Below, piece after piece: positions 3,452 through 9,065 of a stretch of DNA of 62,814 nucleotides. Made by a program: the position numbers and the translations under genes. Position 1 is the first letter of the stretch, and the number at the start of each line of letters is the position of its first letter. The stretch comes from an uncultured Pelagibacteraceae bacterium (GTDB lineage Bacteria; Pseudomonadota; Alphaproteobacteria; Pelagibacterales; Pelagibacteraceae): positions 1-62,814 of the forward strand of contig CACKBU010000007.1 in assembly GCA_902598485.1 (NCBI GenBank). The letters are read 5' to 3'. Below the pieces are notes generated by a model. It was not told where the DNA came from. It ran no database searches and worked only from the letters and a program-made list of their open reading frames with translations.

Positions 3452-4015
3452 ATGAAAAATTTTTTCTTATTTTTTATTGTTCTTTTTTCTTTAAATAATT
3501 TATCAAATGCCAAAGAAAATTTAGCATCTGTAGACAGCCTTTTTCATATTGATCAAATGAATTCACACGATGAAAATTTTGCATTATATTTTAAAACCCG
3601 TGAAAAAGCTGTATTAGCTCGAGGAGAAAATTCAAATTATATTAATGATTTTCCAAAAGATCTTTATATTTATAACTATAAAACGAAAGAGTCCTTGCCA
3701 TTGATTTCTTATGAATGGTTTCCCAAAACTGCAAAATATTATTTACAGGAATATGATTTTCCAGTTTTTCCAGATGACTTTGCATATTATCTTTTAAAAG
3801 ATAATAAAACTTTAGTGATGATTAGTGCTGTAAAAAGTTTAAGAGCTAATTTTAAATTTGATATAATTGAGAAAAAACTAGAGCTTTATCCTTTAAATGG
3901 AAAATTTGATTTTATTATTTCTTCGATAGCAAAAAATTGTGGATATTATGAATTTAAAGAACACTACAAATGTAGTTTTTATAAACCTTTAATTTCAAGT
4001 ACCTTAATTAATTAA
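3452..4015 (+). CDS. Secreted hypothetical protein
   Basis: 187 residues that I do not recognise. The N-terminus (M-K-N then a run of F and L, ending S-N-A at residues 18-20) is a good Sec signal peptide with likely cleavage after Ala20, so the mature protein should be periplasmic. The mature part is rich in Phe, Tyr and Lys and has two Cys near the C-terminus (in K-N-C-G-Y and Y-K-C-S-F), spaced so that they could form a disulfide. No catalytic motif was seen. It follows the alpha/beta hydrolase by 48 nt in the same direction. Its last 8 nt overlap the 3' end of ftsY on the other strand, sharing the palindrome TTAATTAA. Confidence 0.7.
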   Translation: MKNFFLFFIVLFSLNNLSNAKENLASVDSLFHIDQMNSHDENFALYFKTREKAVLARGENSNYINDFPKDLYIYNYKTKESLPLISYEWFPKTAKYYLQEYDFPVFPDDFAYYLLKDNKTLVMISAVKSLRANFKFDIIEKKLELYPLNGKFDFIISSIAKNCGYYEFKEHYKCSFYKPLISSTLIN

Positions 4016-4925
4016 TTTGAGTAAATGCCTCTGCGAATTTTTCGGCCTCAAAAATTTGTAAATCATCTTCTTTTTCACCTAATCCAAGTGCAATAATTGG
4101 TAGTTTATATTTTTTAGCAACAGCTAAAAGAATACCTCCTTTTGCTGTGCCATCTAATTTTGTCATAATAAGACCAGTTATCGGAATAATTTTGTTAAAT
4201 TCTTCAACTTGATTAATTACATTTTGGCCAGAAGTTGCATCCAAAACTAAAATAACATCATGTGGAGCATCAGGATCAATTTTTTTAGTAACGTTTGCAA
4301 TTTTTTTATATTCTTCCATCAAATTTTTTTTATTTTGTAGTCTTCCAGCTGTATCAATTAAAACTTGGTTAAAATTATTTTTTAATGCTTCTTCAACAGC
4401 CTTATAAGCGACTGATGCAGGATCAGAACCTTGAGACGATTTTGTAATTTGAACATCAACTTTGTTTGCCCAATTTTCTAGTTGTTCTATAGCTGCTGCT
4501 CTAAAAGTATCTGATGCAGCTAGCATTACCTTGTTTCCATTACCCTTTAATATTTTGCTTATTTTTCCAATAGTAGTTGTCTTTCCAACACCATTGACAC
4601 CTGAAATTAATGTTGCATTTAATTTTTCTTTTTTTTTGAAGAATTTAATATTTTCTAAAGGTTTCATAATTGAAATAATATAATTTTTTAAAATATTATT
4701 TATTTCGTCAGTTAAATCTTTATTGGGATCAATTTTTGTTTGAGAAATTATTTCTCTTATTTCTGAAGCCGAAACAATACCAACATCTGATTGAATTAAG
4801 TAATCTTCAATTTTGTCTAGTGTTTTGTCATCAATCTCTTTTTTTACAACTATATCTCTTAAACCTGTTGTAAAAGCTGAGGCACTTTTTTTAAAACCTG
4901 ATTTAAATTTTTCAAAAATTCCCAT
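4008..4925 (-). CDS. ftsY: Signal recognition particle receptor FtsY
   Basis: 305-residue SRP-type GTPase that docks Ffh-ribosome complexes at the inner membrane for cotranslational insertion. The NG domain is complete: Walker A G-V-N-G-V-G-K-T (109-116), D-T-F-R-A-A-A-I-E-Q-L, D-T-A-G-R, and T-K-L-D-G-T-A-K-G-G near the C-terminus. The acidic N-terminal A domain of the E. coli protein is missing. Only a short amphipathic and basic N-terminus (roughly residues 1-30) remains, which is common in small-genome bacteria. The start ATG overlaps the dapF stop by 1 nt, so dapF-ftsY is an operon. ffh, its partner, lies divergently just upstream of dapF. Confidence 0.97.
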   Translation of the reverse strand: MGIFEKFKSGFKKSASAFTTGLRDIVVKKEIDDKTLDKIEDYLIQSDVGIVSASEIREIISQTKIDPNKDLTDEINNILKNYIISIMKPLENIKFFKKKEKLNATLISGVNGVGKTTTIGKISKILKGNGNKVMLAASDTFRAAAIEQLENWANKVDVQITKSSQGSDPASVAYKAVEEALKNNFNQVLIDTAGRLQNKKNLMEEYKKIANVTKKIDPDAPHDVILVLDATSGQNVINQVEEFNKIIPITGLIMTKLDGTAKGGILLAVAKKYKLPIIALGLGEKEDDLQIFEAEKFAEAFTQIN

Positions 4926-5749
4926 TAAATTTTAAAATTTATCTCCTCAATATCTGAAACTGGTCCTTTCATATGAATACTATTGTTTTCATCAATTGAA
5001 ATTGTCAATCTACCTGTAGAAAATTCAATATCCACTTTATCATTTACCAGTCCGTTTTGTTTTGCGGCAAAAGCTGTTGCGCAAGCTGCAGTTCCACAAG
5101 CTTTGGTAAGTCCAGCTCCTCTTTCCCACACTCTAACTTTTATCAATTCTTTATTAACAACAGTTGCTAAAGTAACATTACATTTTTCTGGAAATAGTGA
5201 GTGGGTTTCAATCTTTGGTCCAATTTTTTCAATTTCAAAATTTTCGTTACTATCAACAAAAAAAACTACATGTGGGTTTCCAACATTTACAGCAGTTCCA
5301 CCAGAAAATTCGTTATTATTTTTGTCATTAATTTTAATTCCTAAATTATTCGTATTTAATTCTTTAGACAACGGAATCTCATCCCATTTTGTTTTTGCAA
5401 CACCTATTTCTGTAGAAACCATTTTTTCTCCAACAATATTTGATTTTAATTTGCCAGATAAAGTTGTTAGGACAATTTCTTTTTTGTTATTTTCTTTGCC
5501 TAATAAATCAGCAATACATCTTGTACCATTTCCGCACGCACCAGACATTCCTCCATCTGAATTATAAAATTCTAGTGAAGCATCTGAAATATCATTTTTT
5601 TTAATCAATATTAGTTGGTCACAACCAATAAATTTTCTGTCACAAATCTTTATTATTTGCTCTTTCGTCAGATTTGTAATTGTTTGTCTATTATCTATGA
5701 TGACAAAATCATTACCTAAACCGTCCATTTTAAAAGCTTTAATATCCAT
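4925..5749 (-). CDS. dapF: Diaminopimelate epimerase
   Basis: 274 residues. Interconverts LL- and meso-diaminopimelate for lysine and peptidoglycan synthesis in the cytoplasm. Both catalytic cysteines are present in their signatures: G-A-C-G-N-G-T-R-C (Cys72) and K-A-C-G-T-A-A-C (Cys218). The N-terminal M-D-G-L-G-N-D-F motif and full family length are seen. The first ATG is used; a second in-frame ATG lies seven codons in, at M-D-G-L-G. The upstream gap of 160 bp is shared with the divergent ffh leader. The stop overlaps the ftsY start. Confidence 0.97.
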   Translation of the reverse strand: MDIKAFKMDGLGNDFVIIDNRQTITNLTKEQIIKICDRKFIGCDQLILIKKNDISDASLEFYNSDGGMSGACGNGTRCIADLLGKENNKKEIVLTTLSGKLKSNIVGEKMVSTEIGVAKTKWDEIPLSKELNTNNLGIKINDKNNNEFSGGTAVNVGNPHVVFFVDSNENFEIEKIGPKIETHSLFPEKCNVTLATVVNKELIKVRVWERGAGLTKACGTAACATAFAAKQNGLVNDKVDIEFSTGRLTISIDENNSIHMKGPVSDIEEINFKI

Positions 5750-5771
5750 ATATAGATATTTAACTTATTTA

Positions 5772-5797
5772 TTGACTTTTTGAACCTCTATTATAGG
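5772..5797 (+). promoter_or_regulatory. Possible ffh promoter (weak spacing)
   Basis: A good -35 hexamer TTGACT (5772-5777) lies just upstream of the ffh leader. A -10-like TATAGG at 5792-5797 gives only a 14-bp spacer, and TATTAT at 5789 gives 11 bp, both too short. Alternatively the -35 is the poorer TTATTG at 5769-5774, which gives 17 bp to TATAGG. A start near 5803-5805 would put the whole hairpin array in the transcript. The placement is inference. Confidence 0.35.
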
Positions 5798-5803
5798 TTG
5801 TTG

Positions 5804-5909
5804 CCGTTTCCGCAAAAACATTAACTTTGCGGTGTCTTTGGAAACAAAGAGATCGACACTAGTCAGCGAGGGTTCGCCCACTAGTGCGTTACTGCTATGC
5901 GTAATAAAT
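5804..5909 (+). ncRNA. Structured 5' leader of ffh (candidate cis-regulatory RNA)
   Basis: Four local hairpins can be drawn directly: (A) CCGCAAA 5810-5816 with TTTGCGG 5826-5832; (B) TCTTTG 5835-5840 closed by a GAAA tetraloop on CAAAGA 5845-5850, optionally extended by GTGTC 5832-5836 with GACAC 5855-5859; (C) CACTAGT 5857-5863 with ACTAGTG 5880-5886, enclosing either GCGA/TCGC or GGG-TTCG-CCC; (D) TTAC 5889-5892 with GTAA 5901-5904, five bases before the ffh ATG. The long form of B and stem C compete for bases 5857-5859, a switch-like arrangement. The stretch is far more GC-rich and paired than the surrounding intergenic DNA. I recall a published SAR11 candidate RNA called the ffh motif; this is probably it. 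It lacks the conserved tetraloop-receptor core of 4.5S RNA. Confidence 0.7.
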
Positions 5910-7268
5910 ATGTTTGAAAATTTAACAAATAAATTTGAAGAAATTTTTTCTTCTCTGAAAAAGGCACCTTCGCTTGATGAAGCTCAAGTAGATGAAGGTT
6001 TAAGAGGCATTAGGCAAGCCCTACTTGAAGCAGATGTCTCTTTGGATGTTGCAAAAGATTTTATTGAAAAAGTTAAGCCAAAAGCATTAGGCCAAGAGAT
6101 AATAAGGTCTACCTCTCCTGGGGATATGGTTGTTAAAATTGTTTATGATGAGCTTGTAGACTTACTAGGTGCAACAAATAATGAGATAAACTTAAACGCA
6201 GTACCGCCTGTGCCAATGATGTTAGTTGGGTTACAAGGTTCTGGAAAAACAACAACAACAGCAAAATTAGCAAAATTTTTAGAAAATAATAAAAAGAAAA
6301 AAGTAATGATGGTCAGTCTAGATATCTACAGACCAGCTGCACAAGAACAACTTAGATCTTTAGGAGAACAAAATAATATTTTAACTTTACCTATTATAGA
6401 AGGTCAGCAACCTGCTGATATTTGTAGAAGAGCAATAAGTGCCGCTAATTTAAATGGAGCTGAAATAATCTTGTTTGATACAGCTGGTAGAACCCAAATC
6501 GATTTACAAATGATGAGTGAGATTAAGCAAATTGAAGCTGTCATTAATCCAACAGAAACTTTCTTAGTTGCAGACTCTTTAACAGGTCAAGTTGCAGCCT
6601 CAGTGGCAAAAGAATTTAAAAATACAGTTAATTTATCTGGAATTATTTTAACTAGGGCTGATGGTGATGCAAGAGGTGGTGCCGCAGTGAGTATGAAATA
6701 TGTTTCAAACGTTCCAATTAAATTTTTAGGGATAGGAGAAAAAATAGATAATCTTGAAGTATTCCATCCAGATAGAATCGCAAACAGAATACTAGGTATG
6801 GGGGATATTGTATCCCTTGTAGAAAAGGCGGCTCAAGATTTAGGAGAAGAAAATCTTAAAAAAGCAGAGGAAAATTTAAAAAAAGGTCAATTCTCTATGG
6901 AAGATTATTTATCTCAATTAAGACAAATGAAAAAAATGGGCGGCATTGAGGGAATTATGTCTTTTATGCCTGGAGTTTCTAAAATTAAATCTCAAATGGA
7001 CTCAGCGGGAATTGATGAAAGTATAATTACTAAAAATGAAGCTGTTATTTTATCAATGACAAAAAAAGAAAGAGAGAACCCAAAAATAATAGATGGTTCT
7101 AGAAAAAAAAGAATTGCTAATGGCTCTGGCACAGATCCGGCCACTATCAATAAATTGCTTAAGCAATTTAAAATGATGTCTGAAATGATGAAAAAGATGT
7201 CAAAAGGAAATCTGAAAGGTATGTCTGATAAAGGTATACCGCCAGAGCTATTTAACCAATTAAAGTAA
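5910..7268 (+). CDS. ffh: Signal recognition particle protein Ffh
   Basis: 452 residues from the ATG at 5910. GTPase that binds 4.5S RNA and signal sequences of nascent inner-membrane proteins. NG domain: Walker A G-L-Q-G-S-G-K-T (107-114), D-T-A-G-R, and T-R-A-D-G-D-A-R-G-G. The C-terminal M domain is Met-rich and has the RNA-binding stretch S-M-T-K-K-E-R and S-R-K-K-R-I-A-N-G-S-G-T. An in-frame ATG at 5832 would add 26 residues, but they are not Ffh-like and are encoded by the structured leader, so I rejected it. There is no clear Shine-Dalgarno sequence; hairpin D sits where one would be, which suggests control of translation. ffh starts a long plus-strand run with rpsP 12 nt downstream. 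Confidence 0.96.
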   Translation: MFENLTNKFEEIFSSLKKAPSLDEAQVDEGLRGIRQALLEADVSLDVAKDFIEKVKPKALGQEIIRSTSPGDMVVKIVYDELVDLLGATNNEINLNAVPPVPMMLVGLQGSGKTTTTAKLAKFLENNKKKKVMMVSLDIYRPAAQEQLRSLGEQNNILTLPIIEGQQPADICRRAISAANLNGAEIILFDTAGRTQIDLQMMSEIKQIEAVINPTETFLVADSLTGQVAASVAKEFKNTVNLSGIILTRADGDARGGAAVSMKYVSNVPIKFLGIGEKIDNLEVFHPDRIANRILGMGDIVSLVEKAAQDLGEENLKKAEENLKKGQFSMEDYLSQLRQMKKMGGIEGIMSFMPGVSKIKSQMDSAGIDESIITKNEAVILSMTKKERENPKIIDGSRKKRIANGSGTDPATINKLLKQFKMMSEMMKKMSKGNLKGMSDKGIPPELFNQLK

Positions 7269-7280
7269 AAAGGAGAAGAA

Positions 7281-7772
7281 ATGTTAAAATTAAGATTATC
7301 AAGAGGTGGAACAAAAAAACGTCCTGTTTATAAAGTTGTTGTTGCCGACAGTCGTTTTGCAAGAGATGGAAGATTTATAGAAAAAGTTGGTTTTTTTAAT
7401 CCTCTATTACCAAAAGAGAAAAAAGAAAGAGTGGGCCTAGAAGCTGAGAGAATTAAATATTGGCTTGGTCAAGGAGCTCAACCAACAACTAGAGTAGCAA
7501 GAATTTTAGGTGAGAACGAACTAATGCCTATGCCTGCAAACGGAAATAATCCAAATAAAGCAGTGCCAAAAAAAGAGAGAAATAAAAAAGAAGAGGATAA
7601 TAAAGAAGCTCCTAAAGAAGAAGCTCCAAAAGTAGAAGCAGCTCCAGCAGCAGAAGCTCCTAAAGAAGAAGCTCCAAAAGCAGAAGCAGCTCCAGCAGCA
7701 GAAGCTCCTAAAGAAGAAGCTCCAAAAGCAGAAGCTCCTAAAGAAGAAGCTCCAGCAGAGGAAAAAAAATAA
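7281..7772 (+). CDS. rpsP: 30S ribosomal protein S16 with long acidic/Ala-Pro-rich tail
   Basis: 163 residues, about twice the usual S16 length. Residues 1 to about 83 are a normal S16 core (start [10 protein letters not shown], then [10 protein letters not shown] and [10 protein letters not shown]). From about residue 100 on the protein is a low-complexity tail of Lys, Glu, Ala and Pro built from a 16-residue repeat. S16 is an assembly protein of the small subunit body. A strong Shine-Dalgarno AGGAG at 7271-7275 supports the start. Order here is rpsP-trmD-rplS; rimM, normally between rpsP and trmD, is absent. Confidence 0.96.
7605..7752 (+). repeat. 48-bp tandem repeat inside rpsP
   Basis: Two full 48-bp units (7605-7652 and 7653-7700) differ at one base, followed by a partial third unit (7701-7730) and a further shortened copy from 7731. 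Each unit encodes 16 residues of the form E-A-P-K-E-E-A-P-K-(V/A)-E-A-A-P-A-A. The near identity of units at the DNA level points to recent expansion by slippage or recombination. Confidence 0.9.
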
Positions 7773-7786
7773 TTTAAAGATTATTT

Positions 7787-8473
7787 ATGTGGCAAGCTCA
7801 AGTGTTTACACTTTATCCAGAGGTTTTTCCTGGTCCTTTATCTAAAGGACTTTATGGAAAAGCTTTATCAAATAATTTATGGAAACTTAAAGTTGTAAAT
7901 ATAAGAGATGCAGCTGATGATAAACACAAAACAGTAGATGACACACCTTATGGGGGTGGGTCAGGGATGTTGTTAAAAGCAGATGTTCTTGCAAAGTCTT
8001 TAGATGAAAACAAAAATGAGAGTGAGAGAATTTTATACTTATCACCAAAAGGAAAAAAATTTGATCAAAATTTAGCAAAAGAGCTAGCTAGTGAAAAATC
8101 TCTGTCTTTAATTTGTGGTCATTTTGAAGGTGTAGACGAAAGAATACTTTCAACAAGAAATATTGAGGAAATTAGTATTGGAGATTATGTTTTGTCAGGC
8201 GGGGAGTCAGCTGCATATGTAGTTATAGATAGTATTTTAAGATTACTGCCAGGTGTATTAGGAAATGAAAACTCTAAATTAGATGAAACCTTTGAAAATG
8301 GTCTTCTAGAGTATCCTCAGTATACAAAACCTCAAATTTGGGAGGAAAAAGCTGTGCCAGACGTGCTATTATCAGGTGATCATAATAAAATTAAACACTG
8401 GCGTTTATCTCAATCTGAGGCTATAACACGCGACCGAAGACCAGATTTATGGGAAAAATATAAGAAGAATTAA
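7787..8473 (+). CDS. trmD: tRNA (guanine-37-N1)-methyltransferase
   Basis: 228 residues. SPOUT-class enzyme that methylates G37 next to the anticodon using SAM, which prevents +1 frameshifting. Family motifs are present: Y-G-G-G-S-G-M (with the upstream D-D-T-P), [12 protein letters not shown] and [10 protein letters not shown], which form the trefoil-knot SAM site. C-terminal domain is complete (Y-T-K-P and L-S-G-D-H). It starts 14 nt after rpsP and is followed at once by rplS. Confidence 0.97.
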
Positions 8474-8489
8474 CTTGATAAATATTAAC

Positions 8490-9065
8490 ATGAAAACAAT
8501 TGAAGAAATTAACCAGCATAACGTTAACAAAATTCTTTCAGAGAAAAAAATTCCAGAATTTTATCCTGGAGACGTTGTTAAAGTTGGTGTGAGAATTACC
8601 GAGGGTAAAAAAGAAAGAATTCAATATTTTGAGGGAGTGTGTATTGCTAAAAAAAGCAGAGACTTAAACTCATCTTTTACGGTTAGAAAGATTTCATTTG
8701 GAGAGGGTGTTGAGAGAACTTTTCCTTTATTTGGAACTTTAATTGACTCAATTAAAGTTATTAGATCAGGTAAAGTAAGAAGAGCAAAACTTTATTATTT
8801 AAGAGACAGAACTGGTAAATCAGCAAGGATTGCAGAAAAAATTAGAAAAAAAATTGGTATTGATATCGAGGCAAAACCAGAGACAGTTACAGAAGAAAAT
8901 GTAGCTCCTGCAGTAGAAGCACCAAAAGAAGAAGCTCCTAAAGCAGAAGCAGCAACAGTACCAGAGGCTCCTAAAGCAGAAGCAGCACCTAAAGAAGAGG
9001 CGACTCCAGCAGCAAAGGCTCCTAAAGAAGAACAAAAATCAGAAAGCTCTACAGAAAAAAAATAA
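8490..9065 (+). CDS. rplS: 50S ribosomal protein L19 with Ala/Glu/Pro/Lys tail
   Basis: 191 residues from the ATG at 8490; a TTG five codons upstream (8475) is possible but adds only M-I-N-I-N and is less likely. Residues 1 to about 120 are a standard L19 core ([29 protein letters not shown]). L19 lies at the 30S-50S interface. The remaining 65-70 residues form a low-complexity tail ([11 protein letters not shown] type) closely resembling the tail of S16 encoded two genes upstream; the usual protein ends near residue 115-120. Confidence 0.96.
8902..9062 (+). repeat. Degenerate repeat region encoding the L19 tail
   Basis: Imperfect copies of a GAAGCTCCTAAAG-like unit encode [13 protein letters not shown] style residues. 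It is less regular than the rpsP array, but codon and unit choice are the same, so the two tails may have exchanged sequence or may be under the same selection. Confidence 0.7.

Follow-up and report, generated by a model that had tools for sequence, protein, structure and literature searches.

The leader in front of ffh in a SAR11-type genome most probably belongs to a ribosomal-protein operon and not to ffh itself. The window analysed here is a stretch of 62,814 nucleotides from an uncultured Pelagibacteraceae bacterium (contig CACKBU010000007.1). Its leader contains the hairpin known as the ffh motif (RF01793). According to our reading, the RNA is the leader of the (ffh-)rpsP-(rimM-)trmD-rplS operon, and surplus ribosomal protein S16 would bind to the helices P2 and P3 and lower expression. 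The probability of this reading is roughly 0.6. It builds mainly on a family of alphaproteobacteria, termed f50 in this report, in which the motif is retained directly before rpsP although no signal recognition particle (SRP) is detectable.

Identity and position of the leader

The leader is located between the divergent gene dapF (4925..5749, minus strand; identified from its ORF, by tblastn and by annotation) and ffh, directly before the ffh ATG at position 5910. The full RF01793 model aligns to positions 5842-5894 with 56.9 bits (gathering cut-off 35 bits), which confirms the identity given in a first-pass annotation. RF01793 is the sole Rfam family above its cut-off in the whole window. 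When the leader (5760-5930) was compared with Rfam at E<=10, only RF01793 fell below E 1. The leader is real and its hairpin core is already known: it has the bulged hairpin, the two conserved cytosines and the covarying stem that characterize RF01793. Over the best segment, the Ffh of the window shares 100% identity with that of several Pelagibacteraceae loci, and the genome is thus of the SAR11 type.

In the accessible text of Meyer et al. 2009 (PMC2704228), the ffh motif is described as a single bulged hairpin before ffh, found in SAR11, Rhizobiales, Rhodobacterales and Sphingomonadales. The leader of the window has the same P3 hairpin at the same place. It differs from the published description, which ties the hairpin to ffh, by the additional helix P2 and a likely promoter, and by the occurrence of the motif before rpsP in genomes without detectable SRP. 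The same text assigns no function to the motif, in agreement with the first-pass annotation, and states that it does not resemble the part of 4.5S RNA that is bound by Ffh. The bacterial SRP RNA (RF00169) is connected to the leader only by the name of the ffh gene. Its model gave no line for 5760-5930 at E<=10, so that the match expected of an SRP RNA or of a mimic of the Ffh site is absent. The SRP RNA gene of this genome lies elsewhere (G000:C19:11366-11458, corresponding to L002:1501-1593). It scores 35.5 bits against an Rfam cut-off of 40 and would therefore be missed by annotation based on the cut-off.

The leader lies on the same strand as, and upstream of, an operon with a ribosomal-protein gene, and it has a conserved secondary structure with covariation. 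It is classed as a probable ribosomal-protein leader, a kind already known. In searches of the open-licence literature, no assignment of the hairpin to the rpsP operon, no description of P2 or of the promoter and no SRP-less family were found.

Helices P1, P2 and P3

Three helices on the plus strand make up the predicted structure. P1 pairs CCGCAAA with UUUGCGG (5810-5816/5826-5832). P2 extends over 5830-5855. Its core UCUUUG/CAAAGA (5835-5840/5845-5850) is closed by a GAAA loop (5841-5844) and is separated by a G.G mismatch (5834 x 5851) from the foot CGGU/AUCG (5830-5833/5852-5855), which overlaps P1. P3 (5857-5886) is the core of RF01793 and consists of seven base pairs (5857-5863/5880-5886), a near-constant C.C mismatch (5864 x 5879), an inner stem of four base pairs (5866-5869/5874-5877) and a loop. 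In the window, 23 nt separate the end of P3 from the ffh start codon. P1, the P2 core with its GAAA loop and P3 coincide with three stems that had been proposed from the single sequence (5810/5826, 5835/5845 and 5857/5880).

Taken by itself, the fold of this sequence exceeds chance only mildly (z -1.94, with 8 of 200 shuffles equally good). It is the comparison across relatives that makes the predicted structure convincing. The sets compared included a family alignment of 58 Pelagibacteraceae sequences (52 distinct rows) and, for the class, 108 representatives that are less than 80% alike, chosen from 250 anchored leaders. Anchoring by the script failed for the leaders L035, L045 and L054, which were excluded.

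Standard pairs occupy 99.3% of the pair cells of the three-helix structure in the 52 rows, versus 93.0% (s.d. 0.3) after shuffling and 38–50% when the structure is slid along the alignment. Two-sided changes occur in 10 of 24 pairs, distributed as 6/6 in the P2 core, 2/7 in P1 and 2/11 in P3, where nine pairs are invariant within these rows. The number of further pair types is no higher than in shuffles (114/500 reach it). RNAalifold recovered P2 with its foot, as well as P3, from the 58 Pelagibacteraceae sequences; the outer pair of the foot changes from C-G to U-A in 13 of them. Across 91 non-SAR11 alphaproteobacterial rows, the same program found double changes at 10 of the 11 pairs of P3, whereas P2 was not recovered from the plain alignment of these rows. 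The P2 region nevertheless folds better than shuffled sequences in the 108 representatives (mean z -1.8), and 105 of these contain the C.C mismatch. The covariation is strong for P2 within SAR11, strong for P3 across the class and modest for P1. The leader thus passes the covariation check that the first-pass annotation had suggested.

P1 is paired in 97.8% of the cells of the 52 distinct SAR11 rows. As a helix of the whole class it was rejected (mean z -0.37 in the 108 representatives compared with -0.30 for the upstream control). P1 is claimed for SAR11 and, by eye, for the loci L004, L007, L013 and L014 only.

Alternative pairings

The first-pass annotation had also proposed a fourth hairpin (5889/5901) and a competition of GTGTC-GACAC for the 5' strand of P3. 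Neither is borne out by the relatives. Any hairpin in the segment after P3 was counted in 80 distinct SAR11 segments, and there is no excess over shuffled sequence. The fourth pair of GTGTC-GACAC is broken in 19 and the fifth in 15 of the 52 rows.

A different overlap is present between P1 and P2. The CGG at 5830-5832 has two alternative partners, the other strand of P1 and AUCG (5852-5855) in the foot of P2. Columns 10, 31 and 56 of the alignment, which are concerned here, read GCG in 34 of the 52 rows and AUA in 12. By eye, the AUA rows belong mostly to a few clades, so that few events are involved. The overlap is also seen by eye in some loci outside SAR11 (L004, L007, L013 and L014) and is absent from the f50 loci. 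The shared CGG is a possible switch, since binding could exchange the strands between P1 and the P2 foot. Of the features expected of a metabolite riboswitch (a ligand pocket and an expression platform with alternative folds), this overlap is the only one seen.

A candidate closing stem, P0, between the 5' end of the transcript and the segment after P3 is striking in L032, L036 and L225. It is superior to plain permutation (0/5000), but this permutation mixes G+C classes. Relative to partners shuffled by dinucleotide, P0 reaches a mean z of only -0.25 (s.e. 0.10), with -0.08 for the reversed control.

Distribution of the motif and linkage to rpsP

In the family Pelagibacteraceae, 101 of 118 genomes match the motif, and many of the other 17 are incomplete. 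At the class level, matches with E<=0.001 were obtained in 106 of 385 sampled genomes, of which 81 exceed the cut-off. The remaining 279 gave no match under strict filters, by which weak matches may be lost. A plasmid search matched seven records. Two were examined, those of Sinorhizobium meliloti (L294) and Paracoccus denitrificans (L293); both have RF01793 above the cut-off, followed by ffh and then rpsP. In one locus (L194, genome G339), about 30 nt, among them the 3' side of the motif, are repeated directly downstream.

The first downstream gene is ffh in 98 of 105 class loci, at a distance of 8–284 nt from the motif (median 43 nt). The upper end of this range is represented by L005, L016 and L018 (180–284 nt). 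The seven loci without ffh comprise four of f50 and three with the motif near a contig end (L177, L196 and L202). With respect to rpsP, 99 of the 106 class motif genomes carry it downstream on the same contig and strand, 105–5129 nt away according to the listed coordinates. Among the other seven, the motif lies at a contig end and rpsP on a different contig in three, and four gave no rpsP. None of the 106 genomes has motif and rpsP on one contig yet apart.

The proximity of ffh and rpsP is not a consequence of the motif. In 63 of 65 motif-free genomes checked, ffh is found just before rpsP; in the other two (G020 and G089) the genes are on different contigs. The linkage is therefore independent of the motif, and in many cases the operon occurs with no motif detected. 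Since ffh comes first in nearly all class loci, it is inseparable from rpsP in most lineages.

The genes of the operon

In the window, all operon genes are on the plus strand. The first gene, ffh (5910..7268; SRP54 and SRP_SPB domains), encodes the signal recognition particle protein. It is followed by rpsP (7281..7772) for S16, the proposed regulator, which was identified from its ORF and a tblastn match to related loci. Next are trmD (7787..8473; ORF and tblastn order in related loci) and rplS (8475..9065) for ribosomal protein L19, with a PF01245 match at 8502-8840. S16 and L19 of the window have long low-complexity C-terminal tails rich in Ala, Glu, Pro and Lys, and a similar acidic tail is present in S16 of several f50 loci such as L241-L245. 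The neighbouring dapF also adjoins the motif in the SAR11 relative G098, in Sinorhizobium meliloti and in the f50 loci L267-L269.

Six neighbourhoods were read, and rpsP and trmD are the only operon genes common to all of them. Between rpsP and trmD, the window and the f50 locus L268 have no rimM. Furthermore, rplS is detached in at least two of the 80 motif genomes searched for L19. In G283 it lies about 2 Mb off. In G320 it is encoded on the other strand, about 8 kb from rpsP. Both genomes keep motif, ffh, rpsP, rimM and trmD together. G022 has rplS on the strand of the motif at a distance of about 11 kb; several other motif genomes have the two on different contigs. With rplS detached and rimM missing, rpsP and trmD are left, and S16 is the ribosomal protein among their products. 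Two further observations were made in these genomes. The displaced rplS of G320 (L271, about 3625-4179) adjoins a piece resembling the end of trmD, which suggests a duplicated or rearranged operon end. In G283 (L270), a serC leader (RF00517, 9790-9841) is situated about 5.6 kb downstream of the motif, near the usual place of rplS.

These neighbourhoods bear on the question which product would be the ligand. L19 is the other ribosomal protein of the operon. Its gene is found downstream of the motif in SAR11 and many of the 80 motif genomes searched, and the ligand is often not encoded by the first gene of a ribosomal-protein operon, according to the accessible part of PMC7247131. The detachment of rplS in G283 and G320, while the motif remains with rpsP, makes L19 an unlikely ligand. 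Another operon product or assembly factor, TrmD or RimM, would be an improbable one. Like rpsP, trmD occurs in all six neighbourhoods, whereas RimM is disfavoured by the lack of rimM at its place in the window and in L268. We know of no precedent for TrmD or RimM as ligands of a leader.

A family with the motif and without detectable SRP

The f50 family is represented by 18 genomes (G049, G174, G270, G347 and G498-G511; loci L241-L254 and L267-L269), the assemblies of which have sizes of 0.9–1.4 Mb and are 55–97% complete. The motif is retained in 14 of them; G498, G502, G505 and G507 gave no match. In all 14 loci, rpsP directly follows the motif, with its start codon 59–66 nt from the GTCA core, and in none is ffh found between the two. 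Three loci, L267, L268 and L269, were read over their full length. In each, RF01793 is above the cut-off and the motif is flanked by dapF and, on its other side, by rpsP-(rimM)-trmD-rplS-leuC. By tblastn, this gene order is that of the SAR11 relative G098 (L272) minus ffh. L267, L268 and L272 share, beyond dapF, a gene that by eye looks like mtaB.

The components of the SRP were searched for in these genomes. TIGR00959 (Ffh) at E<=1e-80 was found in none of the 14 f50 motif genomes but in 65 of the 66 motif-free genomes of the same search. The M domain of Ffh (PF02978) was not above the cut-off in any of the 18 f50 genomes, with two scraps containing stop codons in G498 and G500. Nor were SRP54-type GTPases (PF00448) above the cut-off in any of the 18; there were only short weak matches, the best at 2.2e-4 over 41 positions. 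SRP RNA (RF00169) at E<=1 was detected in none of the 18, compared with 13 of 14 control genomes. A diverged f50 SRP RNA could be missed, since even the SRP RNA of the SAR11 genome scores below the cut-off. Given the incomplete assemblies, the absence of the SRP from any one genome is weak evidence; the agreement of all 18 is not. To our knowledge the SRP is close to universal, so that a family without a detectable one is striking in its own right. One further genome (G112, 81% complete) has no TIGR00959 match, a very weak M-domain match and no SRP RNA, and represents either a gap or an SRP-poor lineage.

The P3 helix of f50 is preserved. In 12 distinct sequences every pair is kept, double changes occur at two pairs and the C.C mismatch is present in 12 of 12. 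From this pattern, P3 in f50 is judged to be under selection and not decaying. Because the motif is kept before rpsP in a family without detectable SRP, it most likely controls the ribosomal-protein operon rather than ffh.

The first-pass annotation had suggested autoregulation, in which Ffh or free SRP RNA acts on ffh through the leader. The position of ffh as the first downstream gene agrees with this proposal, as does the general tendency of RNA-binding proteins to control their own mRNA (general knowledge; see also PMC2704228, in its accessible part). Such an element is expected only where Ffh and SRP RNA exist. In f50, the covarying motif stands before rpsP with no Ffh, FtsY or SRP RNA found, and the leader is without a match to the SRP RNA model even at E<=10. 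Meyer et al. 2009 (PMC2704228) likewise noted no resemblance to the part bound by Ffh. Autoregulation by Ffh or SRP RNA is accordingly very unlikely.

Proposed promoter and 3' tail

A conserved TTGAC is located 60–115 nt upstream of P3 in 105 of the 108 representatives, compared with 6 of 108 in the reverse-strand control. In the window it is part of TTGACT (5772..5777, plus strand), the -35 box of the proposed promoter of the leader. A possible -10 box, TAGGTT (5794..5799, plus strand), was assigned by eye after lining up the relatives, and transcription may start near position 5805 if this assignment by eye is right. A sigma-70 consensus scan of 5600-6100 returned four promoter-like sites, and neither box is among them. 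On the basis of the conserved TTGAC box, the leader is taken to form the beginning of a transcript of its own. A start upstream of the hairpins, as implied by the first-pass annotation, thus fits the conservation, though the consensus scan omits this promoter.

The 3' tail between P3 and the first start codon (5887..5902 in the window, plus strand) was characterized by base counts in the 108 representatives. The class consensus is U-rich, followed by UU(G/U)G 10–13 nt after P3, and is degenerate in the window. No terminator-like site was detected in 5600-6100.

A leader at the predicted 5' end of a long operon might also be a passive structure that stabilizes or enhances the mRNA with no specific ligand. 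This is rendered highly improbable by the near-constant C.C mismatch and the sequence-conserved flanks, which suggest specific recognition. The least likely of the alternatives is a small RNA derived from the leader and acting in trans, with an incidental mRNA context: Rfam types RF01793 as sRNA, a Mesorhizobium RNA is annotated as RF01793 and detection in metatranscriptomic small-RNA studies is reported in the accessible text of PMC2704228, but on every contig that could be checked, the motif adjoins this operon on the strand of its genes; in f50, where ffh is lacking, it remains with rpsP, and in the window no terminator-like site follows P3.

Proposed function of the leader

The preferred reading, control of the rpsP operon by S16, would proceed as follows. 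The transcript would start at the promoter just upstream and fold into P1, P2 and P3. Surplus S16 that is not bound to 16S rRNA would then bind to P2 and P3 with the near-constant C.C mismatch. Binding would lower expression of the first gene and, via coupling or polarity, of the whole operon. In SAR11, it may additionally switch strands between P1 and the P2 foot via the CGG. What the computation shows is the conserved structure, its gene context and its independence of the SRP; promoter, ligand, repression and switch are proposals.

As the step controlled, a simple block of the start codon does not suit every locus, given a motif-to-start distance of 8–284 nt. It fits the window and f50, and does not fit the loci with a spacing of 180–284 nt.

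Likeness to the rRNA binding site is frequent but not obligatory in ribosomal-protein leaders. Mimicry of the S16 site of 16S rRNA (h15/h17) by this leader is not convincing. The best core match is in h17 of E. coli and scores 13, compared with 16 for the reverse-complement control. The likeness to E. coli h17 is a weak UCAGCG match, which is absent from h17 of the SAR11 relative G406.

Comparison with known leaders

A predicted S16 leader before rpsP in Flavobacteria, with S16 as the likely ligand, was reported by Eckert and Weinberg 2020 (PMC7247131, accessible part). It resembles the leader of the window in being a predicted leader with rpsP downstream and S16 proposed as ligand. It belongs to another phylum, however, and no common structure with the window leader is shown. 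The Pelagibacter rpsB and rpsL leader motifs are candidate ribosomal-protein leaders from the same study as the ffh motif (PMC2704228, accessible text). They differ from the present leader in operon and structure, and the ffh motif is tied to ffh in that text. For the E. coli rpsP operon, a 2023 update states that information on regulation does not exist.

Taken together, a wider reading may be offered tentatively, and it is more doubtful than control of this operon by S16 itself. RF01793 would be a bS16 autoregulatory leader across much of Alphaproteobacteria, with a strand exchange between P1 and P2 over the CGG in SAR11. The ffh gene would be a passenger, and the leader would have stayed with rpsP in the SRP-less family.

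Biological implications

The assignment gives a testable answer for an RNA to which the describing paper, in its accessible text (PMC2704228), assigned no function. It also proposes a candidate regulator for the rpsP operon; how this operon is regulated in E. coli is unknown according to the 2023 update. If the wider reading is true, RF01793 would be the first element known to control rpsP-trmD in Proteobacteria. Control of an operon headed by ffh through S16, if it occurs, would tie the protein-targeting (SRP) capacity of the cell to its ribosome supply via one RNA.
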